DNA from: Streptomyces dysideae
GTDB taxonomy: Bacteria > Actinomycetota > Actinomycetes > Streptomycetales > Streptomycetaceae
Assembly (NCBI RefSeq): GCF_001514305.1
Contig: NZ_KQ949075.1
Coordinates: forward strand, 47,091 to 111,090
Length of the DNA: 64,000 nt
Direction: 5' to 3'
Positions within the stretch are counted from its first letter, which is position 1. Each line of letters opens with the position of its first letter. Below, in pieces: positions 2 to 26,265 of the stretch. The notes below the pieces were generated by a model, which was not told the DNA's origin, ran no database searches, and saw only the letters and a program-made list of their open reading frames with translations. The position numbers and the translations under genes were made by a program.

Positions 2-814
2 TCCGTCGCGGGCACCGTCGGCAGCGCCGGCCAGGCCAACTACGCGGCCGCCAACGCCTGTCTGGACGCCCTCGCCGAGCACCGTCGCTCGTTGGGGCTG
101 CCCGCCACCTCGCTCGCCTGGGGTGTGTGGGAGCAGGACGGCGGCATGCAGGACTCCCTCGCGCACAGCGACCGCGAGCGGATGAGCCGCAGCGGCATGC
201 GGGCCCTGAGGGGCGATGAGGGACTGGCCCTCTTCGACGCCTCGCTGCACGCCCCCGACGCGGTGCTGGTCGCGGCCCACTTCGACTTCGCGGCCCTGCG
301 CAGCGGTACCGGACAGGACGCGGTGCCCGTCCTGCTGCGTGCCTTGGTCCGCCCGGCCCGGCGGTCCGCGCGGGCGGCCGCGGCGCCCGCCGCCGAGTCC
401 CTCGCCGAGCGGCTGGCCGCCCTGCCGGAGGAGGAGCGGCACCAGGCGCTCCTCGACCTGGTCGCCGAGCAGGCGGCCGGGGTCCTGGGCCTCGCCGGGC
501 CGGACCAGGTCGAGGACGACCAGGCCTTCAAGGACCTGGGCTTCGACTCGCTGACCGCGGTCGAACTGCGCAATCAGCTTGCCGCCCGCACGGGGGTGCG
601 GCTGCCCGCCACCCTCGTCTTCGACCACCCGACGCCCACCGCGCTCGCCCGACGCCTGCGCGAGGCGCTGGTCCCGCGGGCAGCACAGGAGACGGCTCCG
701 GCCCGGAGGACGACGGAGTCCTCCGCGCCGGCCGGGGAAGCGGAGGCCGACCTGATCGCCGGCCTGGACGTGGAGAGCCTCGTGGCGCGCGCCCTGAGCG
801 CCTCGGCCAACTGA
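2..814 (+). CDS. Modular type I polyketide synthase, C-terminal fragment (end of KR, ACP, docking tail)
   Basis: This is the 3' end of a PKS gene that begins outside the window; the reading frame is open from base 2. The first residues carry the ketoreductase signature [12 protein letters not shown], in which the Tyr is the catalytic residue, followed by the typical KR end (LAWGVWE). An acyl carrier protein follows, with its phosphopantetheine Ser in GFDSL (codon 548-550). About 45 residues after the ACP are acidic and probably form a docking domain that hands the chain to the next protein. No thioesterase is present. The stop lies 27 bp before the next PKS start, so the two genes are probably one transcript. 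The module reduces its beta-keto group at least to a hydroxyl; whether DH or ER domains precede it cannot be seen. Confidence 0.95.
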
Positions 815-841: not shown

Positions 842-3800
842 ATGACTGTTTCCGACGAACGGCTCGTCGAGGCGCTGCGCGCGTCCCTCACCGAGAACGA
901 GCGGCTGCGGCGGGAGAACGAGCGGATCACCGCCGCCGCCCAGGAACCGGTGGCCATCGTGGGCATGGCCTGCCGGCTGCCGGGCGGGGTCACCTCGCCC
1001 GAGGAGCTGTGGACCCTGGTGGCCAGCGGCCACGACGCCGTCACCGGCCTCCCCGCCGACCGCGGCTGGGACCTGGACGGCCTCTACCATCCGGAGCCCG
1101 GCCACCCCGGCACCACCTACGTCAAGGAGGCCGGAGTCCTGTACGGCGCGGGACAGTTCGACGCCGGCTTCTTCGGTCTCTCCGACCGGGAGGCTCTCGG
1201 CACCGACCCGCAGCAGCGCATCCTGCTGGAGTTGGTCTGGGAGGCCCTGGAACGGGCCGGTATCGACCCGCACAGCGTCCGTGGCACCGACACCGGCGTC
1301 TACGCGGGCCTGATGTACCACGACTACGCGAACGGGGTACGCAAACTCCCCGAGGGCGTCGACAGCTTCCTCGGCCTCGGCAAGTCGGGCAGCGTACTGT
1401 CGGGCCGGGTCTCCTACCTGTACGACCTGACCGGCCCGTCCGTCACCGTCGACACGGCCTGCTCCTCCTCACTGGTCACCCTGGACATGGCCGTGCGGGC
1501 GCTGCGCGGCGGCGAGTGCGCGATGGCGCTCGCGGGCGGTGTCGCCGTGATGGCCACGCCGGATGCGTACGTCGGCTTCGCGGCGCAGCGGGCCCTCGCT
1601 CCCGACGGGCGCATCAAGGCGTTCTCGGCCTCGGCCGACGGCACCAACTGGGCCGAGGGCGCGGGCGTACTGCTCCTGGAGCGGCTGTCGGACGCGCGGC
1701 GCAACGGGCACCCGGTGCTCGCGGTGGTGCGCGGTACGGCCGTCAACCAGGACGGCGCCTCCAACGGCCTCACCGCCCCCAACGGCCCCTCGCAGGAGCG
1801 GGTCATCCGGGCCGCCCTCGCGGGCGCCGGCCTCACCCCCGCCGACGTGGACACGGTCGAGGCGCACGGCACCGGCACCGTGCTGGGCGACCCGATCGAG
1901 GCGCAGGCGCTGATCGCCGCCTACGGCCAGGACCGACCGGCGGACCGCCCGCTGTGGCTGGGCTCACTCAAGTCGAACATCGGGCACGCGCAGGCCGCGG
2001 CCGGCGTCGCCGGGATCATCAAGATGGTGATGGCCCTGCGCCACGAGGAACTGCCCAGGACCCTGCACGTGGACGCGCCGACACCGAAGGTGGACTGGTC
2101 GGAAGGGGCCGTACGGCTCCTCACCGAGGCCCGTCCCTGGCCCCGGGAGGAGGGCCGCCCGCGCCGGGCCGGTGTCTCGTCGTTCGGCATCAGCGGCACC
2201 AACGCGCATGTCCTGCTGGAGGAGGCCGCACCCGAGCCCGCCGCCGGGACAGGCGCCGCCCGCGCGGGCGGCCCCGTCGCCTGGGCGCTGTCGGCGAAGA
2301 CCGCAGCCGCGCTGCGCGACCAGGCCGCCCGCCTCGACACCTTCCTCGACGCGGCGGACGCCGACGCCGACCCGTACGACGTCGGGCACGCCCTCGCGCT
2401 GGCCCGCGCCGCCTTCGACGAGCGGGCCGTGGTCGTCGCCGACGACACCGGCACCCTGCGCGCCAAGGTCCGCGCCCTCGCCGAGGACACCGCCGGTTCA
2501 CTCCCGGGCGTGGCCCGCGGCAGCCGGACGAAGGGTCGCCTCGCGGTGCTGTTCACCGGGCAGGGCTCCCAACGGCTCGGCATGGGCCGGGAGTTGTACG
2601 AGACGTACCCCGCCTACGCGGCAGCCTTCGACGCGGTGGTGGCCGAGCTGGACCGGCATCTGCCCCGGCCGCTGAAGGAGGTCGTCCTCGACGACGCGGC
2701 CGCGCTGGACCGCACCGAGTTCACCCAGCCCGCGCTGTTCGCCGTCGAGGTCGCCCTGTACCGCCTCTACGAGTCCTGGGGAGTGCGTCCGCACGCCCTG
2801 GCCGGGCACTCCATCGGCGAGCTGGCCGCCGCGCATGTGGCGGGGGTGTGGTCGCTGGCTGATGCGGCCCGGCTGGTCGCGGCCCGGGGCCGGCTGATGC
2901 AGGCGCTGCCGTCGGGCGGCGCGATGATCGCCGTACAGGCGACGGAAGCCGAAGTCCTGCCCCTGCTCACCGACGGTGTCGGCATCGCCGCCGTCAACGG
3001 GCCGCGGTCCGTGGTGGTCTCGGGCGTCGAGTCCGAAGCGGCGGCAGTCCAGGCGCACTTCGCCGAACTGGGCCGCAGGACCAAGAGGCTGACGGTCAGT
3101 CACGCGTTCCACTCTCCCCTCATGGACTCGATGCTGGCGGAGTTCCGGCAGACCGCCGCCGAGCTCACCTACCAGGAGCCGCGCATCCCGGTGATCTCCG
3201 ACGTCACCGGCGCACCGGCGACCGCCGAGGAGCTCACCTCCCCCGAGTACTGGGTACGGCACGTCCGGGCCGCCGTCCGCTTCGCCGACAGCATCCGCGC
3301 CCTGCGGGCCCAGGGCGTCGCCACCTTCCTGGAGCTCGGCCCCGGCGCGGTGCTCTCCGCCCTGGGCCCCGCCTGCCTGGACGCCACCGACGACGGCGTC
3401 GCCTTCCTCCCCGCCCTGCGCGTCGACGCCCCCGACGCACAGACCGCGCTCACCGCGGCCGGCGGGCTGTTCACCCGGGGCGTTCCCATCGACTGGACGG
3501 CGCTCTTCCCCGGCGCACGGCGGGTGGACCTCCCGACGTACGCCTTCCAGCGCCGCGACTACTGGCTGGAGGCCGGCACCATGACCACCGAGACGATCAG
3601 CACCCCCGAGACGGACACCGCCACCGACCCCGGCGCCGACGCCCTGGACGCGACCCGGCGCGCACTCCAGGAGCGGCTGGCGGGGCTGGACCCGGCGGAG
3701 CAGGTCGCCCTCCTCGTCGACCTGGTCGCGGCGGAGGCCGAGACCGCCCGGACCGAACAGAACCCCGACGAGACCTTCGACGACGAACTGGACGGCGAGA

Positions 3801-3979
3801 GCCCGTTCTTCGAGGTCGGCTTCAACTCGCTGAGCGCCGTCGAACTGCGCAACCGGCTCGTCGAGGTGACCGGCCTCACCCTCAGCCCGATGCTGCTCTT
3901 CGACTACCCGACCCCGGCCTACATCGCCGAGTTCCTGCAGGAGCAGCTGGCCACCGAGACCGCGAACGGAGGTGAGTGA
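842..3979 (+). CDS. Type I PKS, single non-reducing extension module KS-AT-ACP
   Basis: A 1045-residue protein. Residues 1-33 form a charged coiled coil typical of an N-terminal docking domain. The KS runs from about residue 35 to 460 with Cys207 (DTACSSS), His342 (EAHGTGT) and His382 (NIGHA). The AT has Ser657 in GHSIGE and the HAFH motif at 754-757, which predicts malonyl-CoA. The ACP has Ser996 in GFNSL. There is no KR, DH or ER between AT and ACP and no thioesterase, so this module adds two carbons and leaves a beta-keto group. Because the release enzyme is encoded separately (amide synthase at 15450-16220) and no PKS gene follows, this is a good candidate for the last elongation module, though gene order need not equal module order. 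The start follows GGGAGAGAAGATC. Confidence 0.95.
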
Positions 3980-3980
3980 G

Positions 3981-5597
3981 ATGACCGCACCGACCGCACA
4001 CGCCGACATCCTCGTCGTCGGCTACGGCCCGGTCGGCCAGCTGCTCGCACTGCTCCTGGCCGACCGGGGCCGCACCGTCACCGTCGTCGAGCGCTGGCCG
4101 CAGGCGTACCCCATGCCGCGGGCCGTGGCCTTCGACGGCGAGGGCGCACGGACGCTGTCCGCGGCCGGGATCGGCGGCCTCGTCGGCAGGATCGGCGAGT
4201 CGTCCGGCGAGTACCTGTGGCAGAACGCCGACGGCCAGGTCCTGCTGCACATCGACGGATCCGAGCGGAAACTCGCCGGGTGGCCCGAGTCCACGTCGAT
4301 GTACCAGCCAGCGCTGGAGGCCGAGATGGAGGCACGCGGAGCCCGGCACGCCAACATCACCGTGCACCGCGGCCACCAGGTCGTCCGCATCGTCGAGGAT
4401 GCCGCGCCGGACGGGACCGTCGAGGTCACGGCCGTCGGCCCGGACGGCGACGAACGGACGCTGACCGCCTCCTGGGTGGTCGGCTGCGACGGGGCGAACA
4501 GCTTCGTCCGCCAGGCCATCGGCACCGAACTGTCCGACCTCGGCTTCTCCCACGACTGGCTGGTCTGCGACATCGTCCACCACGACGAGCGCACCTTCCG
4601 GCCGAACAACCTGCAGATCTGCGACCCGGCCCGCCCGCGCACCTCGGTGTCCGCGGGCCCCGGGCACCGCCGCTACGAGTTCATGCGGGTCGCGGGGGAG
4701 ACCGTCGAGGAGCTCAACACCCCGGAGAGCTGCTGGCGGCTGCTGGAACACTTCGACGTGTCCCCCGAGAACTCCACCCTGCGACGCCACCACGTCTACA
4801 GCTTCCGGGCCGGCTCGGCCGAACGCTGGCACCTCGGCCGGCTGGTCATCGCGGGCGACGCCGCCCATGTGATGCCGCCGTTCGCGGGCCAGGGCATGTC
4901 CTCCGGCTTCCGGGACGCGGGCGCGCTCGCCTGGCGGCTGGACGCCCTGCTCGCCGGTCGCGCCGGCCCCGAGGTCCTCGACCACTACGAGGAGGAACGC
5001 CGCACCCACGTCAGGCACGCCATCACCATGTCGGTCAACCTGGGCCGCATCATCTGCCAGACCGACCCCAAGGCCGGCGCCGACCGGGACCTGGTGATGA
5101 AGGCGGCGGCGGAACGGGCCACGGCCGCGGGCACCGCACCCCCACAGCGCTCCCCCCTCCAGCCGCTGACCAAGGGCTTCCTGCACCGCACCGCGAACGG
5201 CAGGCCCGCGAAGCCCGCCGGCGCGCTGTCCCCGCAGGCCCGAGTGGCACAGGGCAGCCGGACCGGCCTCTTCGACGAGATCGTCGGCCTGGGCTTCGTC
5301 CTCCTCACCACGGAGGACCCCGAGACCCTGCTCACGGAACCGGACCGGTCCTTTCTCGCCACCCTGGGCACGAGGATCGTCCGCATCCTCCCGTCCGGTA
5401 CGGACCCGGCGCGGACGGTTCCCGGGGAGGTCGTGGACCTCGACGACGTCTACGTCCCGTTCCTGACCACGGCGGCCGCGACCACCGCCCTCGTCAGGCC
5501 GGACTTCTACGTCTACGGAGCAGCCGCCGGCCCCGAGGCCACCCGCGCCCTCCTCGACGAGGCCCGCACGCAGCTGAGGGCGGCGATGCCTGTCTGA
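3981..5597 (+). CDS. Class A FAD-dependent aromatic monooxygenase, Rif-Orf19-like
   Basis: A 538-residue flavoprotein hydroxylase of the MhpA/PheA family. It has the N-terminal dinucleotide-binding motif GYGPVG, the DG motif GCDGANSFVRQ, and the GD motif GDAAHVMPPFAGQG. ATG 3981 is preferred to GTG 3972 because GGAGG (3968-3972) sits 8 nt upstream and the ATG begins one base after the PKS stop, so translation is probably coupled. In rifamycin-type clusters a homologous enzyme (Rif-Orf19) oxidises the aromatic AHBA-derived part during chain assembly and is needed for the naphthalenic ring. The placement directly behind a PKS gene suggests the same role here; that is inference. A later tailoring hydroxylation is the main alternative. 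Confidence 0.85.
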   Translation: MTAPTAHADILVVGYGPVGQLLALLLADRGRTVTVVERWPQAYPMPRAVAFDGEGARTLSAAGIGGLVGRIGESSGEYLWQNADGQVLLHIDGSERKLAGWPESTSMYQPALEAEMEARGARHANITVHRGHQVVRIVEDAAPDGTVEVTAVGPDGDERTLTASWVVGCDGANSFVRQAIGTELSDLGFSHDWLVCDIVHHDERTFRPNNLQICDPARPRTSVSAGPGHRRYEFMRVAGETVEELNTPESCWRLLEHFDVSPENSTLRRHHVYSFRAGSAERWHLGRLVIAGDAAHVMPPFAGQGMSSGFRDAGALAWRLDALLAGRAGPEVLDHYEEERRTHVRHAITMSVNLGRIICQTDPKAGADRDLVMKAAAERATAAGTAPPQRSPLQPLTKGFLHRTANGRPAKPAGALSPQARVAQGSRTGLFDEIVGLGFVLLTTEDPETLLTEPDRSFLATLGTRIVRILPSGTDPARTVPGEVVDLDDVYVPFLTTAAATTALVRPDFYVYGAAAGPEATRALLDEARTQLRAAMPV

Positions 5598-5876: not shown

Positions 5877-6959
5877 TCAGTGCTCGCGGGGCATCTCCGC
5901 GAGGACGCGCAGGACCACCTCCTCAGGGACCGAGGAGACCAGTTCGGGGCCCTGCGGGCCGCTCAGTACGAAGGAGAGGCCCGTCATCGCCTTCTTGTCC
6001 AGACGCATCAGGGCGACGAGTTCGGCGTCCCGCAGGCCGGCCGGCAGCCGGTGGGGGAGGCCGTGGTCCCGGACCACCTCCTCGTGCTCGGCGACGTGCG
6101 CCTCGTCGATGCGGCCCAGCGCCCCGGCCAGCCGGCCCGCGAACACCGTGCCGATCGCGACCGCCTCACCGTGCCGCAGGGCGAAGTCGGTGGCCCGCTC
6201 CAGGGCGTGCCCCAGCGTGTGGCCGTAGTTGAGGATGTGCCGCAGGGCGGCGTCCCGTTCGTCGGCGGCGACGATCCGCGCCTTGCACGCCACGCTCGCC
6301 GCGATCTGCTCGACGAGCGGCCGGCCCCGCAGATCCCCGGCCCCGATGAAGTGCGCCCGGGCGATCTCCCCGTACCCGTTGCGCCACTCGCGTTCCGGGA
6401 GCGTGCCGAGGAAGTCGGTGTCGCACAGCACCGCGGACGGCTGCCAGTACTGGCCGACCAGGTTCTTGCCCTGCGGCAGGTTCACCGCGGTCTTCCCACC
6501 GACGCTGGCGTCCACCTGGGCGAGCAGCGTCGTCGGCAGATGGATCACCGGCAGCCCGCGGTGGTACAGCGCCGCGGCCAGTCCCACGGAGTCGGTGGTG
6601 GTGCCGCCGCCGACGGAGACGACGGCGTCCGCGCGGCTCAGCCCGAACTTGGCGAAGGCCCGGCACATCCGTTCCACGGTGGCGAGCGATTTGTCCTCCT
6701 CACCGTCCCGCGCCGACAGATGCAGCGTGGGCAGTCCGGTCGCGGGCAGCAGGGAACGCGGCCGGGCCGAGACCACGACGACCTTCCGGGCGCCGACGTC
6801 GGCGAGGATGCCGGTGAGGAGATGGCGTACGCCCGGACCTATGTGGACGGGGTACGAGCGCTCGCCGAGGTCCACGTCGATCCGGCGGGCGGCGACACTT
6901 GCAGCGGGTGCGACGGTCGCAGCCTTCACCGCAGTCGTAGCAGCAGTCACAGCAGTCAA
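5877..6959 (-). CDS. 3-amino-dehydroquinate synthase (RifG-like)
   Basis: A 360-residue DHQ-synthase family protein expected to cyclise aminoDAHP to aminoDHQ in the AHBA starter pathway. It shows the NAD-binding SVGGGTTTDSVG segment, DASVGGKTAVN and GKNLVG, and the metal ligands Glu in GYGEIAR and His in NYGHTLGH and LRHGEAV. In ordinary DHQ synthases the Glu motif reads AEVIK; here the Lys is Arg. A longer reading frame exists upstream but its translation is nonsense. TTG 6959 is chosen because AAGGA (6966-6970) lies 6 nt upstream. It is transcribed after the SpaB_C-like gene with a 49-bp gap. The isolated position away from the other AHBA genes is normal for ansamycin clusters. Confidence 0.88.
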   Translation of the reverse strand: MTAVTAATTAVKAATVAPAASVAARRIDVDLGERSYPVHIGPGVRHLLTGILADVGARKVVVVSARPRSLLPATGLPTLHLSARDGEEDKSLATVERMCRAFAKFGLSRADAVVSVGGGTTTDSVGLAAALYHRGLPVIHLPTTLLAQVDASVGGKTAVNLPQGKNLVGQYWQPSAVLCDTDFLGTLPEREWRNGYGEIARAHFIGAGDLRGRPLVEQIAASVACKARIVAADERDAALRHILNYGHTLGHALERATDFALRHGEAVAIGTVFAGRLAGALGRIDEAHVAEHEEVVRDHGLPHRLPAGLRDAELVALMRLDKKAMTGLSFVLSGPQGPELVSSVPEEVVLRVLAEMPREH

Positions 6960-7008: not shown

Positions 7009-7830
7009 TCAGGCCGACTGCAGGGCCGTGCCCCCGGTGAACGCGGTCGGCAGCGGCCTGCCCGCGGCGAGCGCCGAACGGACCGTGCGGGCCGCCCGCG
7101 CCTCGGTTCGGGCCGGTACGCCCAGCCGTTCGTGGGTGAGCAGGACGTGGTCGTACAGCAGGAAGTTGACCGGCATCCCGTCGTCCCGGCCCGTGGCGAC
7201 GGCCGCGCGGACCGAGGACAGGTAGCCGTCCCACAGCTCCGCGTCGCCGGGGACGCACGCGTCAACCGGTGCCGCGGCTCGGGCGTCCGCTTCGGCGGCC
7301 AGCTCCAGCCGGTCCGCCGGGGCCAGGCCGGCCGTGCCGAACTGCCAGAAGTGGAAGAGGAACGCGGCCCGTTCGCGCTCCGGGACGAGGGTGCTCACGC
7401 GGCTCAGGTGCGCGACGGCCAGCCACTGCCGGTCCGTCGGGCCGAGACCGCCGTCGCGGAGGAGTTCCAGCGCGAAGGAGCTGGACTCCGTGGCCAGCCG
7501 GTGTGCCATCCGCAGCGTCCCCGGTGTGCGGTACTTGGCCGTCTCCGGGAGGTAAGTGCTGGTGATCATCGGCCAGTTGTACGCGGAGGTACGGGCCAGC
7601 AGCCGGCGCTCCAGGTCCTTCAGCACCGGCTCGGCGGAGTGGAACCACAGTCCGAGGTCCGGTTCGCCGCCGGCGCCCGGCCCGCGGAACTGCCACAGCG
7701 CCTCCGGGTCCTGCGTGCGCAGCCGGCCGACGAGCTCGGTGACCAGCGTGGAGACGACCCGGGCGGCGTGGTTCTCCGGCCGGCTCCGCATCGGGTTGGG
7801 CAGTCGGACGAAGAGCCATTGACGGTTCAT
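7009..7830 (-). CDS. SpaB_C-like (lantibiotic dehydratase C-terminal / thiopeptide-type) protein, stand-alone
   Basis: A 273-residue protein that begins MNRQWLFVRLPNP. It has the features of the PF14028 family: an N-terminal strand WLFVRL, a segment WQFRGP followed by LGLWFHS where family members read RY...HLRLR, and TYLPETAKYRTPG followed by ESSSFALELL where they read TYEPEterYGG and dS. It lacks the RYGG dipeptide and has no N-terminal glutamylation domain. Known members eliminate tRNA-bound glutamate in RiPPs, act in PEARL-type ligases, or form the pyridine ring in thiopeptides (TclM, TbtD). There is no RiPP precursor or YcaO gene here. GAGGAGA 9 nt before ATG 7830 fixes the start. It leads the operon with aminoDHQ synthase, so it probably belongs to the ansamycin pathway. 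Function unknown; family assignment by eye. Confidence 0.55.
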   Translation of the reverse strand: MNRQWLFVRLPNPMRSRPENHAARVVSTLVTELVGRLRTQDPEALWQFRGPGAGGEPDLGLWFHSAEPVLKDLERRLLARTSAYNWPMITSTYLPETAKYRTPGTLRMAHRLATESSSFALELLRDGGLGPTDRQWLAVAHLSRVSTLVPERERAAFLFHFWQFGTAGLAPADRLELAAEADARAAAPVDACVPGDAELWDGYLSSVRAAVATGRDDGMPVNFLLYDHVLLTHERLGVPARTEARAARTVRSALAAGRPLPTAFTGGTALQSA

Positions 7831-8070: not shown

Positions 8071-9015
8071 ATGAGTGGTATCACGGGATTTCTCGGTATC
8101 GACATCGGCGGCACCAAGGTCGCCGTCCGGGTGGAGGGCGCGGGCACCGACCCGCTCCTGACCACCTTCCGCTGGACCTCCGGTGCGGACGTCCGCGAGG
8201 ACCTGGCCGCGCTGGCCGACTGCCTGGTGGCGGTACGGCGGCGATGGCCCGGCCCGCTGCGCGCGGCGGGCGTCGCCCTGCCCGCCACGCTGGACTCCGG
8301 GGGCCGGGTGACGGCCTGGCCCAACCGCCCCGCCTGGGCGGGCCTGAGCCTCGCGGCGGAACTGCACGGCATGCTGCCGGGCACCGCCGTGGCCTGCGCG
8401 GACGACGGTGACCTCGCGGCCCTCGCCGAGGCCGGGGTGGCAGGCCTGGACGACATCCTCTACGTCGGTGTCGGCACGGGCGTCGGCGGCGGCGCCGTCC
8501 TCGGGGGCGAGCTCTGCCCGGGCCCCGCCCGTGGCTCCTTCGAACTCGGGCACCTCGTCATCGACCGCGCCGGCACCCGCTGCGACTGCGGCCGGCGCGG
8601 CTGCGTCCAGGCCCACGCCTCCGGGCCGGCGATCCTCCGCCGAGCCACCGAACTGAGGGACGCGCCCGTCACATACGCCGACCTGTGCGACGCCTGGCAG
8701 CGACAGCTGTCCTGGGCCGTGGTGGCCGTAGACGAAGGCTGCGCGGCCCTCGCCACGGCCATCATCTCGGCCGCGGAACTACTCCGCCCGGACGCGGTCG
8801 TCGTAGGCGGCGGCTTCGCCGAAGGCCTCCCGGGCTTCACGCCCCGGGTAGCCCGCCACACCCACCACCTCACCCGCCCCGGCCACCCCGCCCCCACCCA
8901 CCACGAGGCCCAACTCGGTGGCCTCTCCTCCCTCCACGGAGCGGTCCAACTGGCCCGCACAACCTCCGCGACCATCCCGACCCCGGTCCTCACGGGTTCG
9001 CCCGCCCCTGGCTGA
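8071..9015 (+). CDS. ROK-family sugar kinase, probable kanosamine kinase (RifN-like)
   Basis: A 314-residue ROK kinase with the ATP-binding motif GIDIGGTK at the N-terminus, the segment YVGVGTGVGGGAV, and the zinc motif CDCGRRGC. In most ROK proteins the residue after this motif is Glu (CxCGxxGCxE); here it is Gln followed by Ala-His-Ala. In AHBA pathways the enzyme phosphorylates kanosamine at C-6 before transketolase and aminoDAHP synthase act. ATG 8071 is chosen because the conserved family N-terminus starts there; an upstream extension to 7987 would add arginine-rich sequence unlike the family. No strong ribosome binding site is visible. It heads a plus-strand operon with the exported oxidase and a flavin monooxygenase. 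Confidence 0.82.
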   Translation: MSGITGFLGIDIGGTKVAVRVEGAGTDPLLTTFRWTSGADVREDLAALADCLVAVRRRWPGPLRAAGVALPATLDSGGRVTAWPNRPAWAGLSLAAELHGMLPGTAVACADDGDLAALAEAGVAGLDDILYVGVGTGVGGGAVLGGELCPGPARGSFELGHLVIDRAGTRCDCGRRGCVQAHASGPAILRRATELRDAPVTYADLCDAWQRQLSWAVVAVDEGCAALATAIISAAELLRPDAVVVGGGFAEGLPGFTPRVARHTHHLTRPGHPAPTHHEAQLGGLSSLHGAVQLARTTSATIPTPVLTGSPAPG

Positions 9016-9099
9016 CGCCGCCCCGGCCGTCAACCCCAGGTCACGGCAGATGCCCAGGGCTCAGTGGGCGGTGGGTTCCCGGGGAGTGGTTCGGGGGGC

Positions 9100-9114
9100 C
9101 CGATAGTGGGGTCC
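9100..9114 (-). promoter_or_regulatory. Candidate regulator site shared with the LAL gene promoter
   Basis: The minus strand reads GGACCCCACTATCGG, 76 bp before the BBE-oxidase start. The sequence GGACCCACTATCGG, identical except for one missing C, lies at 19061-19074 just before the LAL regulator start. Such AT-containing cores are unusual in this GC-rich DNA. Binding is inferred only. Confidence 0.4.
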
Positions 9115-9189
9115 GCGCAGGTCACGGAACCCCGCCCCCGGCCCGGCCGCGCCACCCCTTCCATCCAGCTACTTCCTTCAAGGAGCGCC

Positions 9190-10722
9190 GTGTACACACG
9201 ACGAAACGTTCTCCGGGCCGGAGCAGGAGCCGGGCTGGCGCTCGCCGCGTCAGCCGCGGGGGTCGGCGCCGTCGCCGCGGGGACTTCCGCCACCGCCGAC
9301 GACTGGACGGGGCTCGGATCCCGTCTCCAGGGCGACCTCGTGCTGCCTACGGACGCCGGCTACGCGTCCGCCAAGCAGAACCAGTTCGCCGAGTTCGACG
9401 CCGTGCACCCGACGGCCGTCGCCTACTGCGAGACACCGGCGGACGTCCAGGCCTGCGTCGCGTTCGCCCGCGACGAGGGCATATCCGTCAGAACACGCAG
9501 CGGCGGCCACAACTACCGCGGCTGGTCCACCGGCGAGGGCCTGGTCGTCGACGTCTCCCGCATCCGGCACGCCACCGTCGGCACCTCGACCGTCCGTGTC
9601 GGCCCGGGCCTGCAGTCCATCGACGCCCTGCACGCACTGGCCCCGCACGGCAAGCAGCTCATCGCCGGAACCTGTCCCACCGTCTGCCTGGGAGGCTTCC
9701 TCTCCGGCGGCGGAATCGGCTACCAGACCCGCAAGTTCGGCATGGGCGCCGACCGCGTGCGCTCCGTTCAGCTCGTCCTCGCCGACGGCCGTCTCGTGCG
9801 CGCCTCGGCGTCCCAGTACTCCGACCTGTTCTGGGGCCTGCGCGGCGGAGGCGGCGGCAACTTCGGCATCGTCACAGAGTTCGAGGTCGCGCCGATCGAC
9901 GCACCGCGCATGGTCTTCTTCAACACCACCTGGTCCTGGGACAAGGCCGAAGAGGTGTTCGCCGCCTGGCAGACCTGGCAGCTCACCAGCTCGCTGAGCC
10001 TCGGCTCCGCCCTGATCTTCATGCTGCCCGACGCCGCCCCCGGCGAGGTCCCGCAGATCATCGTCACCGGCGGCTACCACGGCTCCGAGGCCGAGGCGAC
10101 CGCCGCCCTGGACCAGCTGACCTCCCTGGTGGGCGCCCAGCCCACCAGCCGCTTCGCCACCGACCTGCCGTACGACGAGGCGATGAAGACCGCCTACGGC
10201 TGCGGCGACCTCACCCAGGACCAGTGCCACCGCGAGGGCACCGACCCGGAGGCGCTGCTGCACCGCGTGGGCTGGCTGCGCGAGGCCTACCGGTTCTTCG
10301 ACCGGCCGTTCTCGCCGACCGAGCTCAACAACCTCATCACGGCGTGGGAGGGTGACCGCCGACCGGGTCAGCGCCGCTTCCTGCACTGCATGTCCGTCGG
10401 CGGCGCCGCGAACAGCGTCGCCCCGTCCGCGACCGCCTTCCCGCACCGCGACGCCAACTTCATCGTCGGCTTCACCACCCAGCTCGACCAGCCGGCGAGC
10501 CCCGACGACCAGCAGGCGGCGAGCGCGTTCGTCGACGCCGGCGCCGCGCTGCTGAACCCGCTGGGATCCGGCGCGTACGTCAACTTCCCCGGCTCCAGCC
10601 TGCCCGACTGGGCGACCCAGTACTACGGCGACAACTACCGGCGGCTGCTGACCGTCAAGCGCCGCTACGACCCCGGCAACTTCTTCCGTCACCCCCGCTC
10701 CATCGGCAGCACCACCCAGTGA
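9190..10722 (+). CDS. Tat-exported FAD-linked oxidase, berberine-bridge-enzyme family
   Basis: A 510-residue protein. Residues 1-38 are a Tat signal with the twin arginine TRRNVLR, a hydrophobic stretch and an Ala-rich cleavage region, so it should be folded in the cytoplasm and exported. The PCMH-type FAD domain has His107 in RSGGHNYRGWS and Cys162 in GTCPTVCLGG, the two positions that carry bicovalent FAD in this family. The C-terminal BBE domain ends NYRRLLTVKRRYDPGNFFRHP. Relatives such as AknOx and TamL carry out late oxidations of secreted antibiotics, so a final extracellular oxidation of the ansamycin is a reasonable inference. GTG 9190 follows AAGGAG (9180-9185). The gene precedes the next flavoenzyme by 57 bp. 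Confidence 0.85.
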   Translation: MYTRRNVLRAGAGAGLALAASAAGVGAVAAGTSATADDWTGLGSRLQGDLVLPTDAGYASAKQNQFAEFDAVHPTAVAYCETPADVQACVAFARDEGISVRTRSGGHNYRGWSTGEGLVVDVSRIRHATVGTSTVRVGPGLQSIDALHALAPHGKQLIAGTCPTVCLGGFLSGGGIGYQTRKFGMGADRVRSVQLVLADGRLVRASASQYSDLFWGLRGGGGGNFGIVTEFEVAPIDAPRMVFFNTTWSWDKAEEVFAAWQTWQLTSSLSLGSALIFMLPDAAPGEVPQIIVTGGYHGSEAEATAALDQLTSLVGAQPTSRFATDLPYDEAMKTAYGCGDLTQDQCHREGTDPEALLHRVGWLREAYRFFDRPFSPTELNNLITAWEGDRRPGQRRFLHCMSVGGAANSVAPSATAFPHRDANFIVGFTTQLDQPASPDDQQAASAFVDAGAALLNPLGSGAYVNFPGSSLPDWATQYYGDNYRRLLTVKRRYDPGNFFRHPRSIGSTTQ

Positions 10723-10779: not shown

Positions 10780-12378
10780 ATGAGTAATTCGACCAGGCGC
10801 GGCACCGCGGTGGTCATCGGTGCCGGCATCGCGGGCCTGACCGCGGCCAAGTCGCTGTCCGACGCGTTCGACACCGTCGTGGTCGTCGACCGCGACGAAC
10901 TGCCGGACGGCGGCCGGCCGCGCCGCGGCGTCCCGCAGGGACAGCACTCGCACGTCCTGCTCGTGGCCGGCCAGCGCGCGCTGGAGGAGCTCTTCCCGGG
11001 CCTCGGCGACGAACTCGTCGAGGCCGGCGCCCAGGTCTTCGACTCGGGCGGCGACCTCCACCTCTACCGGCTCGGCGCCGCCTGGAACCCGGTGCACAGC
11101 GGGCAGCCGTTCGTCTCCATGAGCCGCCCGCTGCTGGAGTACTCGATCCGCCGCCGGGTGCAGGCCCTGCCGAACGTCACGATCCGCTCCGGCACCGCGG
11201 TGTCCGGGCTCGGCGGTGCCGACGGCAAGGTCACCGAGGTGCTCCTGGCGGGCACCGAGCGGCTCGCCGCCGACCTGGTCGTGGACACCACCGGACGTGG
11301 CAGCCGCTCCGACCGCTGGCTGTCGGCGCTCGGCTTCCCCGCCCCCGACGTGGAGGAGGTCAAGGTCAACGTCGGCTACGTCAGCCGTCTCTACCGTCAT
11401 GTGCCCGGCGACCTCGACGTCAAGGCCGCGTTCGTGCAGCCCACCCCGCCCGCCGAGAAGCGCATCGGCGCCGCGCTGCTGATCGAGGACGACCAGTGGC
11501 TGGTCTCGGTCGGCGGCTGGCACCGCGACTACCCGGCCGCCACCGACGCCGGCTTCCTGGAGCACGCGGAGAGCCTGCCTGACCCGATCATCGCCAAGCT
11601 CGTCCGGCAGGCCGAGCCGCTCACCGAGCCGGTGGCCTTCCAGTACCCCGCCAACCGGCGGCGGCACTTCGAGGCACTGGACGACGTACCGAGCGGCTAC
11701 CTGGCCCTGGGCGACGCCATCTGCAGCTTCAACCCGCTGTACGGGCAGGGCATGACCTGCGCCGCGCAGGAGGCGCTCGCCCTGGGCCGGCTCCTAGCCG
11801 AGCACGAGGGCGTCACCGCGGACCTGTCCCGCGCCTTCTACCAGGAGGCCGCCGGGGTGCTCTTCGTGCCGTGGCAGGCCGCCATCGGCGGTGACTTCGA
11901 CTACGCCGAGACAGTGGGCCAACGTCCGTTCGCCGCCGAGCTGTTCGGCCGCTACTCCACCCAGGCGCAGCTGGCCGCGCAGGTCTCCGGCGAGGTCCGC
12001 AAGGTGATCCTCTCGGTGCAGCACCTGCTGGTGCCGCCGATGGCCCTGTGGGAGCCCTCGCTCACGGCCGAGATCGTCCGCGCCGCCCGGCACGCGCCCG
12101 AGGGCACGGAACCGGAGTTCGGCCACGGCGCGCACGGGCGTCCGCTGTGGACGGCCGAGGACCGGGACGCCGAGCGGGTCCGGGCCGTGCTGCGTGAGGC
12201 GGGGCTGCCGGAGTTCTCCGACCGGCAGCCGGGCTTCGCGGTCGAGGGCGGCGACCCGATGCTGGTCGCCCGCCTGGACGGCGGCGACCGGAACGACTGC
12301 GCCGAGGTCATCACCGCGGCCGGGTTCACCGTGACGGCCGACCCCGACGACCCGACAACGCTGCGCCTACGGGCGTAG
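10780..12378 (+). CDS. FAD-dependent monooxygenase, epoxidase-like
   Basis: A 532-residue flavoprotein with the N-terminal motif VVIGAGIAGLTAAKSL, the family marker GVPQGQHSHVLL, and the second FAD motif GDAICSFNPLYGQGMT. It resembles the polyether epoxidase / squalene-monooxygenase-like group (LasC type) rather than the aromatic hydroxylase encoded at 3981. A tailoring oxygenation or epoxidation of the ansa chain is likely but not shown by sequence. GAGGAG (10766-10771) lies 8 nt before ATG 10780. Just upstream is a short CAGACG-rich repeat. Its 3' end faces the HxlR gene with a 49-bp gap. Confidence 0.8.
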   Translation: MSNSTRRGTAVVIGAGIAGLTAAKSLSDAFDTVVVVDRDELPDGGRPRRGVPQGQHSHVLLVAGQRALEELFPGLGDELVEAGAQVFDSGGDLHLYRLGAAWNPVHSGQPFVSMSRPLLEYSIRRRVQALPNVTIRSGTAVSGLGGADGKVTEVLLAGTERLAADLVVDTTGRGSRSDRWLSALGFPAPDVEEVKVNVGYVSRLYRHVPGDLDVKAAFVQPTPPAEKRIGAALLIEDDQWLVSVGGWHRDYPAATDAGFLEHAESLPDPIIAKLVRQAEPLTEPVAFQYPANRRRHFEALDDVPSGYLALGDAICSFNPLYGQGMTCAAQEALALGRLLAEHEGVTADLSRAFYQEAAGVLFVPWQAAIGGDFDYAETVGQRPFAAELFGRYSTQAQLAAQVSGEVRKVILSVQHLLVPPMALWEPSLTAEIVRAARHAPEGTEPEFGHGAHGRPLWTAEDRDAERVRAVLREAGLPEFSDRQPGFAVEGGDPMLVARLDGGDRNDCAEVITAAGFTVTADPDDPTTLRLRA

Positions 12379-12427: not shown

Positions 12428-12856
12428 TCACCGCGGGCTGCCCACGGGCTCCTCCTCCTGCGCGGCGGCGGCCAGGGCATCGCTGTCGTAGGCCGCGCGC
12501 GCCGCGGTGATGGCGCCGCGGTTGCGTTCCGCCCAGTCCATCAGCGTGACGAAGGCGTCGTGCAGTTCGCGCGCGCTGTCCGTGACGCTGTAGACGACCT
12601 TCGCCGGGACCGTGGGGTAGACGGTGCGCACCAGCAGACCGTCCCGCTCCAGGCTGCGCAGGGTCAGGGTGAGCATGCGCCGGCTGATGCCCGGGATGGA
12701 GCGCTCCAGCTCGGTGAAGCGGATCGGTTTCTCGGCTGCAGCCAGGATGATCTGGATGCTCCACTTGCCGCTGATCCGGTCCAGCACCTCGCGCACCGGA
12801 CAGGCGTCCGCCTCGCTCCCGGCCTCCGTGGTTACACCGGTGTTCCGTTGGGACAT
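12428..12856 (-). CDS. HxlR-family winged-helix regulator
   Basis: A 142-residue protein with a conserved Cys (ACPVREVLDRISGKWS) and the HxlR helix-turn-helix PIRFTELERSIPGISRRMLT. HxlR proteins bind as dimers and often sense quinones or aldehydes through the conserved Cys. It is divergent from the exporter gene at 13004 with 147 bp between the starts, so control of the exporter, and of itself, is the natural inference. AAGGAGG (12864-12870) lies 7 nt before ATG 12856. Confidence 0.88.
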   Translation of the reverse strand: MSQRNTGVTTEAGSEADACPVREVLDRISGKWSIQIILAAAEKPIRFTELERSIPGISRRMLTLTLRSLERDGLLVRTVYPTVPAKVVYSVTDSARELHDAFVTLMDWAERNRGAITAARAAYDSDALAAAAQEEEPVGSPR

Positions 12857-13003: not shown

Positions 13004-14488
13004 ATGTCTGCCTCATCGCCTGTCCGGTCCGCCGGGCGGCCGGGTACGAAGATGGCACTGCTGGCGTTCTGCATGCTCATCTTCTCCATCGACTACAACA
13101 TCGTGTACGTGGCGCTGCCGGAGATCGGCCGTGAGGTCGGCTTCTCGGCGCAGTCGCTGCAGTGGGTCGTCAGCGCCTACTCCGTCGGCCTCGGCGGCGC
13201 CCTGCTCATCGGCGGCCGCGCGGTGGACCGCCTCGGCGCCCGCCGGATGCTCGTCCTCGCCCTCGCCCTGTACGGCATCGCGTCCGTCGCCGGCGGTCTG
13301 GCCACCACGCCGGGTCTGCTGGTCGCCGCCCGCGTGGTCCAGGGTCTCGGCGGCGCGCTGCTCTTCCCGGCCACCCTGTCGCTGATCAACACCAGCTTCT
13401 CGGAGGACGCCGAGCGCAACAAGGCGTACGCCTGGTGGGGTACCGCCGGTGCCTCCGGCGCCATCATCGGCTCGATGGTCGGCGGTCTGCTCACCAACTA
13501 CCTGGGCTGGGCCTGGGTGTTCTACGTCAACGTCCCGCTGTGCCTCATCGCCATCGCCGGTCTGCTCTCGAACTTCGCCGCCGACGCGGTGGCGCAGGCC
13601 GAGGCCCGCAGGTTCGACATCCCCGGCGCGCTGCTCGCCACCGGCGGCTCCACCCTGCTGGTCTTCGGCCTGATCAGCGGTCCCGAGGCCGGCTGGGCCT
13701 CCACCCAGACGATCGTCACGCTGGCCGTCGGCCTGGCGCTGGGCATCGGCTTCTTCGCCGTCGAGGCCAGGACGGCCGATCCGCTCGCCCCGTCGCGCCT
13801 GTTCGGCTACCGCGGCCTGCTGACCGCGATCCTGATCATCTTCGTCTTCCAGGGCGCCATCAACACCCTGCACTACCTGTTCTTCATCCAGCTCCAGGAC
13901 GTCATGGGCTACAGCCCGCTCGAGGCCGGCCTCGCCTTCCTGCCGATGAGCGCGGTCGCCATGCTGGGCTCCAACAAACTGCTGCCCAACGTGATCAAGC
14001 GCTGGGGTGTCCGTACGGCCCTGTTCGCCGGCATGCTCGGTGTCGGTGCCGCGATGATCGTGCTCGCCGCGACCATGTCCACCAGCCAGAGCTTCTGGCC
14101 GCTGCTGCCGGCGGTCCTGCTGTGGGGTCTGTTCGCCGGCATGATCTACCCGGCGATGTTCATGGCCGCCGGTTCGGACGCCGCCCCCGACGAGCAGGGC
14201 GTCGCCTCCGCGCTCACCCAGACCTCCGCCCAGATCGGCGGCGCGATGGGCATGGCCGCGCTGATCGCTGTCGCGAACTCCGGCCTCGACCTGAGCGAGG
14301 GCGCCAACAACCCGCTCGCCGACGTGGTGAACGGCCTCCAGCTGTCCGCCCTCGTCGGCGGCATCGCGGCCATCGCCGGCGCGTTCCTGGCCTTCCGCGT
14401 GAAGTCCCAGAAGGCGACGGCACAGGACGAGACCCCGGCCCCGGCGGAAACCCCCGCCGAGACTCCCCAGCCCCAAACCGTCAACTGA
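13004..14488 (+). CDS. MFS drug exporter, DHA2 (14-TM) type
   Basis: A 494-residue membrane protein with motif A variant GGRAVDRLGARRMLV, motif C region GASGAIIGSMVGGLLTNYLGW, and about 14 hydrophobic segments. The C-terminus is a Pro/Ala/Glu-rich cytoplasmic tail. Located in the middle of the cluster and divergent from a HxlR regulator, it probably exports the ansamycin and gives self-resistance. AAAGGA lies about 9 nt before ATG 13004. A CCCTATG-like sequence (reverse strand, 12968-12974) is 30 bp upstream. A strong terminator follows at 14521. Confidence 0.9.
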   Translation: MSASSPVRSAGRPGTKMALLAFCMLIFSIDYNIVYVALPEIGREVGFSAQSLQWVVSAYSVGLGGALLIGGRAVDRLGARRMLVLALALYGIASVAGGLATTPGLLVAARVVQGLGGALLFPATLSLINTSFSEDAERNKAYAWWGTAGASGAIIGSMVGGLLTNYLGWAWVFYVNVPLCLIAIAGLLSNFAADAVAQAEARRFDIPGALLATGGSTLLVFGLISGPEAGWASTQTIVTLAVGLALGIGFFAVEARTADPLAPSRLFGYRGLLTAILIIFVFQGAINTLHYLFFIQLQDVMGYSPLEAGLAFLPMSAVAMLGSNKLLPNVIKRWGVRTALFAGMLGVGAAMIVLAATMSTSQSFWPLLPAVLLWGLFAGMIYPAMFMAAGSDAAPDEQGVASALTQTSAQIGGAMGMAALIAVANSGLDLSEGANNPLADVVNGLQLSALVGGIAAIAGAFLAFRVKSQKATAQDETPAPAETPAETPQPQTVN

Positions 14489-15449: not shown

Positions 15450-16220
15450 TCAGGACTCCGGCAGGAGGATCGTGTCCACGGCGTTCTCGAAGTCCGCCGG
15501 CCGTACCAGTACCCGGATCTCCTGGCGGCCGTTGGCCACCGTGATCAGCCGCTTGCCTATCAGGGTCAGCTGGCCGGTCTCGAAGGCCCGCCCGCGAATG
15601 AGGGTCACCGCGGAGTTCAGCTCGCGCGCGTACTCCCGCAGGCTGGGCTCGCCCCGCCACTCGGACAGGTCCCGTACGACGTCGGGGAACCGGTAGACGA
15701 CCTCCCAGGCGCCCTCACGCGGACGGCGGTTGAGGGTCCAGTACCCGTCCTCCGGGTCCAGCCGGTACGTGCAGCCGTACTGCTCCTGCTCGCCCTCGGC
15801 CAGCCGCAGTGGCTCCAGGAAGGAAGGACCGGCGAACCCCACGTCCACCATCCACCGCTCCTCGCCGAACCGGACGACATGGAACATGTGCTCCAACTCG
15901 GGCCCGAACTCCCCGTTCGCCATCCGGACCCCGGCCGCCATGACGGACACGTCGAAGCCCAGCCGGGTCAGCAGCGTGCGGAACAGACCGCTGAGCTCGT
16001 GGCAGACGCCCCCACGGCCACCGGTGACGACCGCGTCGAACGTCTCGTCGACGTCGATGTCCACGTACTCCCAGATGTCCACCCCCCGCCCGGCGTTGAG
16101 CGAGTTGTCGAACGGCACCTTCATCAGATGCAGCTTGTGGAGAATCCGCAGCAGCTCCGGAGCGGGTTCGAGAGAACCCGAGTACCCCAGTTTCTTCACA
16201 TAGGCGTCTGTGTCGAACAT
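15450..16220 (-). CDS. Ansamycin amide synthase (arylamine N-acetyltransferase family, RifF-like)
   Basis: A 256-residue NAT-family enzyme with the full catalytic triad: Cys73 in GRGGVCHEL, His111 in HMFHVV, Asp126 in MVDVGFAG. In ansamycin pathways this enzyme takes the finished polyketide from the last ACP and closes the macrolactam with the aromatic amine of AHBA, replacing a PKS thioesterase. This agrees with the missing TE at the end of the PKS (3979). AAGGAGGG (16228-16235) fixes ATG 16220; a longer frame to 16316 overlaps the LAL stop and is not needed. The gene follows the LAL regulator by 68 bp, a gap filled by three 14-15 bp repeats. Confidence 0.93.
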   Translation of the reverse strand: MFDTDAYVKKLGYSGSLEPAPELLRILHKLHLMKVPFDNSLNAGRGVDIWEYVDIDVDETFDAVVTGGRGGVCHELSGLFRTLLTRLGFDVSVMAAGVRMANGEFGPELEHMFHVVRFGEERWMVDVGFAGPSFLEPLRLAEGEQEQYGCTYRLDPEDGYWTLNRRPREGAWEVVYRFPDVVRDLSEWRGEPSLREYARELNSAVTLIRGRAFETGQLTLIGKRLITVANGRQEIRVLVRPADFENAVDTILLPES

Positions 16221-16242
16221 ATGGAAACCCTCCTTGCAGGGA

Positions 16243-16286
16243 ATCGAAACGAATGGATCGAAACGAAATGAATCAGAACGGAATGG
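16243..16286. repeat. Three imperfect 14-15 bp tandem repeats before the amide synthase
   Basis: Copies at 16243-16256, 16257-16271 and 16272-16286 share ATCGAAACGAATGG or close variants. They are AT-rich for this genome, fill the LAL/amide-synthase gap and end 3 bp from the LAL stop. They could be an operator array or a leader element for the release enzyme. Confidence 0.85.
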
Positions 16287-16288
16287 CC

Positions 16289-19263: not shown

Positions 19264-19989
19264 TCAGACGGCCCCCGCCACCGCCGGGCACAGTGCCAGC
19301 AGTTCGGCCGGCCGGTGCAGGGCCGCGTCGGGGTCGGCGGTGAGCAGCTCGGCCGCGTCGCACTCGCCCCACAGCGCGGCCACCGCGTCCACCCCGGCGC
19401 CGCGTGCCGCCGCGATGTCGGTGACGGCGTCGCCGACCATCAGGGCCTCCTCGGGGCGGGCACCGAGCAGCTCCAGCGCGCGCAGCACGATGTCCGGCGC
19501 CGGCTTGGCACGGGCCACCTCGTCGGAGCCGAGCACATGGTCGAAGCAGTGGAGGACCCCGAGCGTGTCCAGCAGATGCCGGGCCCGGTCGCCCGCCTTG
19601 CCGGTGGCTATCGCGGTGCGGAACCCGCGCTCGCGCAGCTCCTGGAGGAGCGGGGTGACGCCGGGGAACAGCGGGACCCGGCCGGCGAGCCGGTAGCTCT
19701 CCCGGACGAAGGGACCCTCCATCTCCAGCGGCAGCCCCATGATCCTCATGATGTCCGGGAAATATCGCCCGAGATGGCGCTCGTACTCGTCGAACGGGGC
19801 CTCTCCGTCCCCGACGACCTCGGCATAGGCGATCGTGAACGCCTCCCGCATGACCGGAAAGCTGTCCACGATCACTCCGTCGAGATCGAAGATGACCACG
19901 CTCTTGGGATGGGCGAAGGGACCGGCGGTCGTGACCGCTGTACCGATCGTGCCGGTTGTTCCGGGGGCGAAGGTGATACCAGAGTGCAT
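19264..19989 (-). CDS. HAD-family phosphatase (RifM-like)
   Basis: A 241-residue haloacid-dehalogenase hydrolase with motif I DLDGVIVDS, motif II ATGKAG, the Lys in RAKPAPD and motif IV VGDAVTD. The homologue RifM works with the oxidoreductase RifL in making the aminosugar precursor (kanosamine branch) for AHBA. The first 27 residues before the HAD domain are Gly/Thr-rich. GGGAG 6 nt before ATG 19989 supports the start. It is the last gene of the AHBA synthase-oxidoreductase-phosphatase operon, 49 bp behind the oxidoreductase. Confidence 0.9.
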   Translation of the reverse strand: MHSGITFAPGTTGTIGTAVTTAGPFAHPKSVVIFDLDGVIVDSFPVMREAFTIAYAEVVGDGEAPFDEYERHLGRYFPDIMRIMGLPLEMEGPFVRESYRLAGRVPLFPGVTPLLQELRERGFRTAIATGKAGDRARHLLDTLGVLHCFDHVLGSDEVARAKPAPDIVLRALELLGARPEEALMVGDAVTDIAAARGAGVDAVAALWGECDAAELLTADPDAALHRPAELLALCPAVAGAV

Positions 19990-22486: not shown

Positions 22487-22930
22487 ATGAGCGAACTGCT
22501 GCTGTTGAACGGACCGAACCTCGGCATCCTCGGGCGCCGCGAGCCAGAGATCTACGGCACCGAGACCCTGGGCGACATCGCCGACGCCGTGGCGGACGAG
22601 ATCGCCGACCGCGGCTGGAAGGTGAAGAGCGTTCAGCATGAATCGGAGGCGGAACTGATCCGTGCCATTCAGGACAGTTATGACACGGTCGGGGCCATTG
22701 TGAATCCCGGGGCGCTGATGATCGCGGGATGGAGCCTGCGGGACGCACTCGCCAGTTACCCGCGGCCCTGGATAGAGGTGCACATTTCCAATATCTGGGC
22801 ACGGGAGTCCTTCCGGCACGCGTCGGTGATCGCCCCCATCGCGGACGGTCTCATCGCCGGCCTCGGGGCCACGGGCTACCGGCTCGCGGCCCGGGCACTG
22901 CTCGCCCTGACACCCGCCGAGGCCCGGTGA
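22487..22930 (+). CDS. Type II 3-(amino)dehydroquinate dehydratase (RifJ-like)
   Basis: A 147-residue protein with all type II features: NGPNLGILGRREPEIYG with the catalytic Tyr, QHESEAELI, NPGALMIAG, and the catalytic His in EVHISN. In this setting it should convert aminoDHQ to aminodehydroshikimate, the AHBA synthase substrate. It could equally accept DHQ. GGAGG (22478-22482) lies 4 nt before ATG 22487. Its stop overlaps the thioesterase start by 4 bp (GTGA). Confidence 0.92.
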   Translation: MSELLLLNGPNLGILGRREPEIYGTETLGDIADAVADEIADRGWKVKSVQHESEAELIRAIQDSYDTVGAIVNPGALMIAGWSLRDALASYPRPWIEVHISNIWARESFRHASVIAPIADGLIAGLGATGYRLAARALLALTPAEAR

Positions 22931-25936: not shown

Positions 25937-26265
25937 CGCGTGAAGACCTCGCGGGTGTCGGGGGTCAGCGTGCGCAGGGCGACCAGGGCCGTGATCACGA
26001 CGTCGCAGAGTTCCGACTCGACGTCCTCCCAGGTGTGGCTGGTGCCCTTGCGCGGGTTCTGGCCGGTCGCGCCGATCACGGCCTCGGCGACCTCGCCGAC
26101 CTCCTCCGACAGCTTCAGCATCCGCAGCAGCATGCCCTCCCGGCCGCCGACCGGCCGGTTCGCCTCCAGCCAGGCCCACAGGTCGTCTACGGCGGCCCAC
26201 AGGTCGGCGGAGGGCGCGGGGGAGGCTTCGACGGAGGACGCTGCGGGGGTGGCCTGATCAGTCAT
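25888..26265 (-). CDS. MazG-like nucleotide pyrophosphohydrolase
   Basis: A 125-residue protein with the MazG metal motif EEVGEVAEAVIG (ExxE) and ESELCDVVITAL (ExxD). Such enzymes hydrolyse (d)NTPs to monophosphates; the substrate cannot be told. The start at ATG 26265 gives a 22-residue Ala/Pro-rich leader before the domain. Single gene. Confidence 0.85.
   Translation of the reverse strand: MTDQATPAASSVEASPAPSADLWAAVDDLWAWLEANRPVGGREGMLLRMLKLSEEVGEVAEAVIGATGQNPRKGTSHTWEDVESELCDVVITALVALRTLTPDTREVFTRHLARVTERSLGTASA

Follow-up and report, generated by a model that had tools for sequence, protein, structure and literature searches.

Results

A PF14028 protein gene within an ansamycin cluster

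The window, the whole stretch of 64,000 nucleotides of Streptomyces dysideae DNA that was analysed, contains the genes collected in Table 1. One of them, with an ATG start and coding-like codon use, encodes a stand-alone protein of 273 residues (hereafter SpaB_C), whose sole Pfam match is PF14028 (Lant_dehydr_C; 41.2 bits against a cut-off of 24.4, E 2.9e-10). The original prediction had read a PF14028 layout at 7009-7830 and had placed the gene in one operon with the aminoDHQ synthase gene. The coordinates proved right, as did the family, and the two genes lie on the same strand, 49 bases apart, with AHBA genes, an amide synthase and a polyketide synthase (PKS) around them.

Table 1. Genes and features around the SpaB_C gene, in positions of the window.
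Feature	Position	Strand	Basis
End of preceding PKS module, frame entering from left of window	2..814	+	
Last PKS module, KS-AT-ACP, no reductive domain, AT motif HAFH	842..3979	+	
FAD hydroxylase, MhpA type (RifOrf19/Nam7-like by context)	3981..5597	+	PF01494
AminoDHQ synthase, RifG-like, TTG start 49 bases past SpaB_C stop	5877..6959	-	PF01761/PF24621
SpaB_C-like PF14028 protein, 273 residues	7009..7830	-	PF14028, fold
ROK sugar kinase, RifN-like (kanosamine kinase by context)	8071..9015	+	PF00480
Berberine-bridge-type FAD oxidoreductase	9064..10722	+	PF01565 and PF08031
FAD oxidoreductase, short halogenase-like match	10780..12378	+	profile match
HxlR-type regulator	12428..12856	-	profile match
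MFS exporter	13004..14488	+	profile match
Arylamine N-acetyltransferase-type amide synthase, RifF-like	15450..16316	-	PF00797
Large LuxR-type regulator	16289..19024	-	NBC_00335 homologue annotated LuxR family
HAD phosphatase, RifM-like	19264..19899	-	NBC_00335 homologue annotated HAD-IA hydrolase
Gfo/Idh/MocA oxidoreductase, RifL-like	20039..21142	-	homologue in NBC_00335
AHBA synthase by context (RifK-like), PLP aminotransferase	21139..22305	-	homologues and cluster context
Type II dehydroquinate dehydratase, RifJ-like	22487..22930	+	annotated homologue in NBC_00335
Type II thioesterase, RifR-like	22729..23754	+	PF00975 E 5.5e-57, domain from near residue 107

Gene names were compared with the annotated AHBA cluster of Streptomyces sp. 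NBC_00335, and the roles of the Rif genes are those listed in the available part of a review (PMC8788734). With an AHBA synthase, an aminoDHQ synthase, an AHBA-loading PKS and an amide synthase around it, the SpaB_C gene has an AHBA/ansamycin setting. The aminoDHQ synthase scores 269.5 with the aroB model TIGR01357, under its cut-off of 305, and the FAD hydroxylase reaches 599.3 bits with NF004829, above its cut-off of 390. The ROK kinase gene, divergent from the SpaB_C gene, is the same neighbour that SpaB_C has in NBC_00335.

The PKS, whose start at contig position 25946 lies outside the window to the left, has four KS domains (a pentaketide PKS). The AT motif of its last module, HAFH, is presumably malonyl-type. 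Six runs of N occur in the PKS genes left of the window (C1:30789-47090), and are probably assembly gaps between repeated modules.

Family membership and predicted fold

All nine members of our first clade alignment (A1) match PF14028 at a limit of E 1, and in a profile-profile comparison the clade (18 rows) aligned almost end to end with a set of 18 other PF14028 domains, with a probability of 98.9 and E 2.7e-17. The thiopeptide model TIGR03891 gave 27.9 bits with SpaB_C, under its cut-off of 48.45. PEARLs (small LanBs) have a PF04738 domain without PF14028; SpaB_C, with PF14028 alone and without PF04738, is therefore not a protein of this kind. Small LanBs that lack the elimination domain are described in the available part of PMC4979651.

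The fold was examined using two AlphaFold models, with mean pLDDT values of 83.6 and 85.9 and pTM values of 0.84 and 0.86. When the predicted model was compared with solved structures, the top match was the [4+2] aza-cyclase 8ejz (Z 17.8 over 240 residues, rmsd 3.8). TbtD and PbtD (both Z 17.7) came close behind it, the [4+2] cyclases spanning 240-242 residues at rmsd 3.4-3.8, and NisB (17.4), MibB (17.0), MadB (16.9) and TsrL (16.5) followed. The top 12 structures are all [4+2] cyclases, TsrL or class I lantibiotic dehydratases (Z 16.5-17.8), with the next, unrelated fold at Z 10.7; Foldseek likewise ranks the thiopeptide cyclases and the class I dehydratases highest. A PF14028-type fold is well supported by the predicted models, the matches to TbtD and NisB, with which a comparison had been proposed from the outset, lying far above the unrelated value of 10.7. 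Structure was also tried as a means of telling kinship to the cyclases from kinship to the eliminases; the Z values tie (within 1) and give no separation.

Changed residues and selection on the gene

Known PF14028 enzymes work in RiPP biosynthesis, by glutamate elimination or by the aza-[4+2] cyclisation of thiopeptides. According to the available parts of two papers on NisB, the R786A, R826A and H961A variants kept glutamylation and lost elimination (PMC4979651), whereas H961A was inactive in vivo too and R784A was nearly normal (PMC4341554). In the numbering of the NisB chain, R784 and R786 fall within HIRLR and H961 within HVHNNRL.

Mapped by sequence alignment at about 20 percent identity rather than by superposition, and set against comparison domains taken from the top-scoring PF14028 matches, a choice biased towards canonical members and residues, the R786 column holds Arg in 18/18 other domains and in none of 17 clade members, 15 of which have Trp. 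On the same alignment the R784 column has Arg in 18/18 other domains against 1/17 in the clade, the E823 column Glu in 18/18 against 3/17, the R826 column Arg in 12/18 against 2/17, and the H961 column His in 16/18 against 7 of the 17-18 clade members. The comparison set (A3/A4) consists of 18 of the 29 loci L202-L230, near-duplicates and partial matches having been dropped by hand, and A3 holds 17 of the 18 clade members, with L029 left out as near-identical to L028. SpaB_C itself has W62, K99 and L230 at the columns of NisB R786, R826 and H961, and so lacks these elimination residues. A clade-wide loss of the H961 histidine was considered and dropped; since this residue persists in part of the clade and NisB R784A is nearly normal, not every changed column need mean a lost activity.

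The clade has fixed residues as well. A120, F157, L158, F159, W162, R174, Y203, P220, R235, A247 and R251 are invariant in 18/18 members, and H141 (17/18), H233 (16/18) and H228 (15/18) are nearly so; these new invariants argue for a conserved function of the clade's own. The reading frame is open in 18/18 orthologues and the NG86 dN/dS of the SpaB_C gene is 0.35-0.65 (10 pairs from 5 close orthologues), indicating that the gene is kept by selection. The corresponding values for the aminoDHQ synthase gene are 0.16-0.28 (6 pairs); SpaB_C thus appears to be held less tightly than its neighbour. After a variable linker, a C-terminal LQ[STP][AV] ends 12/18 orthologues, and this tail sits in a low-confidence part of the AlphaFold model.

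RiPP partners and RiPP-type relatives

Screening of the 152 contigs of the S. dysideae genome gave no match to PF04738, the lantibiotic dehydratase N-domain, with both control genomes (G044 and G477) positive, and the one YcaO of the genome is on contig C8, away from the cluster. Both findings agree with the first reading of this DNA, by which no dehydratase or YcaO gene is near. With the PF04738 match missing, the YcaO distant and the residues changed, a RiPP function was set aside. Glutamate elimination by SpaB_C is very unlikely, because the Arg of the R786 column is lost, the clade has invariants of its own and no lantibiotic dehydratase N-domain was found in the genome.

Elsewhere in the same genome (C15:111074-112219; L021:9275-10420), a frame of 381 residues combines a LanC-like stretch, a PF14028 fragment and a phage integrase, and is a chimera or a decayed locus.

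The nearest relative outside AHBA clusters (G982:C167:27651-28826; L197) matches the A1 profile at E 1.4e-19 and is 33 percent identical over 177 residues. By eye it retains the RLR and HNRL motifs, a RiPP-like short peptide is encoded about 10 kb away, and its 67-kb contig has no AHBA genes. We read this protein as a RiPP relative, perhaps one near the origin of the clade.

Distribution and the pairing with aminoDHQ synthase

The survey gave 18 distinct orthologues from 18 genomes, all with an AHBA synthase, which is on the same contig as SpaB_C in 16 and on another in two (G284 and G937). The co-occurrence with AHBA genes in other genomes that the original prediction called for was thus present (18/18); of the outcomes named as refuting that prediction, neither a lack of structural similarity to PF14028 nor a lack of such co-occurrence was seen. 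In 18/18 the SpaB_C gene is the immediate upstream neighbour of the aminoDHQ synthase gene, with which it shares the strand and whose conserved start follows 29-142 bases later, and the flanks of the pair vary (RifN, DAHP synthase or the PKS loading module). The class II DAHP synthase of these clusters is RifH-like, and the homologue in G284 matches PF01474.

Among 297 genomes of the family, 11 match SpaB_C; the 7 best matches are in AHBA clusters, and the 4 weakest have no AHBA gene within about 10 kb. One weakly matching genome (G180) has its AHBA synthase on another contig. Likewise, 14 of 392 genomes of the genus match, nine of them at E 1e-45 or better and all AHBA-linked; the other five, at 1.4e-19 to 7.2e-4, lack AHBA genes within about 10 kb. 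Several of the weak loci, with short peptides and LanB-like genes close by, resemble ordinary RiPP clusters by eye. A sequence scan of the species genomes returned three loci, all of them AHBA clusters, two of which are apparently the contigs of G284 and G374.

AHBA synthase itself is found, at E 1e-100 or better, in 34/394 family and 25/394 class genomes, or 56 distinct genomes. Fifty-two of these were searched (G223, G351, G389 and G065, with best matches 46-51 percent identical, were left out): SpaB_C is present in 11 and gave no match in 41, and, as many of the genomes are drafts, a miss may be an assembly gap. SpaB_C is not required for ansamycins in general, since 41/52 AHBA genomes have no match and three clusters with four KS domains are among them.

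The only annotated orthologue seen, WP_266914379.1 on plasmid NZ_CP108007.1 of Streptomyces sp. NBC_00335, is 57 percent identical and is named from its domain alone ('lantibiotic dehydratase C-terminal domain-containing protein'). It lies between the ROK kinase and aminoDHQ synthase genes, the three together at 132081-135210, about 31 kb from the PKS and amide synthase at 76423-100678. This ansamycin cluster is on a linear plasmid and is split by partition, copper-resistance and other genes.

PKS size, thioesterase and co-evolution

In the seven Streptomycetaceae carriers whose PKS is readable from loading module to end (the cluster of the window, G374, G284, G094, G173, G204 and NBC_00335), all PKSs have four KS domains. 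G574, a carrier from another family, shows two blocks with 7 KS altogether, and one of the blocks reaches the edge of the fetched stretch. For comparison, KS domains were counted in 11 clusters without SpaB_C, drawn from 10 of the 41 negative genomes and including the second AHBA cluster of G173: four KS stand beside the loading domain in three of them (G387, G018 and G161), one cluster has two KS and two clusters have none, and the remaining five are at an edge or have eight. A strict tie between SpaB_C and pentaketide clusters was rejected: SpaB_C is enriched in them, not as a rule, and it is not tied to one scaffold, given the three four-KS clusters without it and the 7 KS of G574. In two genomes (G607 and G477), the 100 kb fetched with the AHBA genes contain no KS domain.

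A type II thioesterase gene occurs in 15/18 SpaB_C clusters against 2/11 without SpaB_C; of the three SpaB_C clusters in which it was not seen, two are covered by short stretches.

A motif scan of the PKS of the close relative G374, for which we assume the usual meanings of the AT, DH, ER and KR motifs, found a malonyl-type motif in all four AT domains. DH and KR motifs occur in modules 1 to 3, joined in module 1 by an ER motif, and module 4 has none of these. In G284, Pfam likewise finds DH, ER and KR domains in module 1. The predicted product of the G374 PKS would be aryl-CH2CH2-CH=CH-CH=CH-CO-CH2-CO-, a dienone with a 1,3-dicarbonyl (beta-keto amide).

A mirror-tree search for the partner of SpaB_C was uninformative, as its distances track most of the cluster: they correlate at 0.86-0.95 with 10/13 cluster genes and less with RifJ (0.67), SARP (0.56) and the amide synthase (0.36; 28 pairs). 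The distances of the amide synthase, seen in 8/18 clusters, barely follow the cluster (r 0.24-0.49), as if this gene had been exchanged between clusters. The idea that SpaB_C replaces a missing AHBA gene was also dropped, there being no consistent gap in the carrier clusters.

Discussion

Because of its fold, its link to AHBA clusters, its fixed place beside aminoDHQ synthase and its altered eliminase residues, we are confident that a PF14028-fold protein has here left RiPP biosynthesis and is now a dedicated part of some ansamycin clusters. Of the original prediction, the recruitment stands in so far as it leads out of RiPP work, the eliminase residues being changed and the genome giving no PF04738 match; its proposal of a polyketide cycloaddition, a ring closure or an amino-acid addition gained nothing direct from these results, and AHBA supply fits them about equally well. 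SpaB_C is probably still an enzyme, and its substrate would be a small AHBA-derived molecule rather than a peptide.

Our best overall explanation, to which we give a rough probability of 0.45, is that SpaB_C is a recruited enzyme of conjugate addition or ring closure on the ansamycin. Three points lead us to favour this chemistry: the fold is known to close rings across activated alkenes and to form such alkenes by elimination, Trp replaces the Arg needed by the eliminases, and pentaketide clusters are over-represented among the carriers. The step itself, by analogy a bond-forming conjugate addition or ring closure on a polyunsaturated ansamycin, is put forward tentatively, and with equal reserve we suggest that the clade, with Trp where the eliminases need Arg, might form C-N, C-O or C-C bonds on pentaketide ansamycins. 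Candidate reactions would be an aza- or oxa-Michael addition, for example of the AHBA amine onto the dienone, or a [4+2] closure, for which a dienone with a 1,3-dicarbonyl of the G374 type may be a suitable acceptor. Such chemistry would lie close to that of TclM/TbtD (ring closure across two dehydroalanines) and of NisB (beta-elimination).

Chemistry of this sort occurs in pentaketide ansamycins, as indicated by the tropansamycins, some of which carry an extra AHBA unit through a C-N bond or an ether bridge (available part of PMC13000494). The same source proposes that the ether arises by Michael addition and the epoxide through a P450, names in that part no enzyme for the attachment of AHBA, and reports production in the wild type only with fed AHBA. 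Against a step on the ansamycin counts the identity of the fixed partner, since aminoDHQ synthase is an AHBA-supply gene and not a tailoring gene.

That partner leads to the reading that SpaB_C acts in AHBA supply together with aminoDHQ synthase, which on its own is possible, if rather doubtful, and is nearly as likely as conjugate addition or ring closure on the ansamycin. SpaB_C would then be a member of a complex, an aminosugar-phosphate enzyme (for example for kanosamine-6-phosphate isomerisation) or a guard of a labile imine intermediate. We know of no sugar-phosphate chemistry in PF14028. The position directly upstream of aminoDHQ synthase in 18/18 despite differing surroundings, the intact trio of NBC_00335 so far from its amide synthase and PKS, and the occurrence of SpaB_C with different PKS make-ups are consistent with this role, and the reviewed pathway includes the action of a phosphokanosamine isomerase (available part of PMC8788734). 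However, 41/52 AHBA genomes show no SpaB_C match, no AHBA gene is consistently missing in the carriers, and the AHBA clusters of G607 and G477, without KS in the 100 kb fetched, lack SpaB_C.

It is unlikely that SpaB_C is a non-catalytic binder of the ansamycin or of AHBA, serving as a carrier, in self-protection or as a regulatory factor. The known catalytic residues of the family are not retained as a set, the protein evolves faster than the adjoining aminoDHQ synthase and the LQ[STP][AV] tail is conserved in 12/18, all of which would suit a binder; the clade-specific invariants W162, Y203, R235 and R251, in contrast, resemble a maintained site. Even less credible is a functionless passenger travelling with aminoDHQ synthase: many AHBA genomes do without SpaB_C, yet where it is present its frame is open in 18/18, dN/dS is below 1 and residues stay invariant at about 30 percent identity. 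Close to refuted is the reading as a RiPP enzyme (glutamate elimination or pyridine synthase) with its peptide encoded elsewhere in the genome, since PF14028 membership and the RiPP-precursor-like short peptide on the contig of the G982 relative stand against a genome without a PF04738 match (controls positive) and with YcaO only on C8, a changed R786 column where that relative retains RLR and HNRL, and strong matches that lie in AHBA clusters.

In the open-access literature, papers with both ansamycin and lantibiotic dehydratase do not connect the two in their available parts, and none pairs lantibiotic dehydratase with 3-amino-5-hydroxybenzoic acid; the absence of the link from print is weakly supported, because subscription journals were mostly outside the search. 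What is new here is a PF14028 clade tied to ansamycin clusters, fixed beside aminoDHQ synthase and with the eliminase Arg replaced. Together with the clade's own invariants, this suggests that the PF14028 fold has been recruited outside peptide biosynthesis. Should SpaB_C act on polyketides, by ring closure or C-N bond formation, polyketide biosynthesis would gain a kind of catalyst new to it; should it instead help to make AHBA, a pathway regarded as complete would turn out to have a further component.

Comparison with known systems

The thiopeptide pyridine synthases (TbtD, PbtD, TclM) have the same stand-alone PF14028 fold as the clade protein over nearly the full length, with only 12-18 percent identity in structural alignments. 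They differ from it in that TIGR03891 stays under its cut-off and that RiPP partner genes were not found; the PbtD and TbtD sequences are not matched by the profiles A1 and A3. The elimination domain of NisB, MibB and MadB also shares the fold (Z 16.7-17.4), whereas the R784, R786 and E823 columns are changed in the clade, the H961 column is variable, and neither protein nor genome gives a PF04738 match. SpaB_C is thus a member of the PF14028 superfamily outside the LanB elimination domains and, on present tests, outside the thiopeptide pyridine synthases, though it may work similarly to them. Among ansamycin systems, the tpm cluster of the tropansamycins, in the main text on which the word lantibiotic does not occur (PMC13000494), resembles the cluster of the window in its AHBA genes, LAL and SARP regulators, amide synthase, hydroxylase and four extensions.
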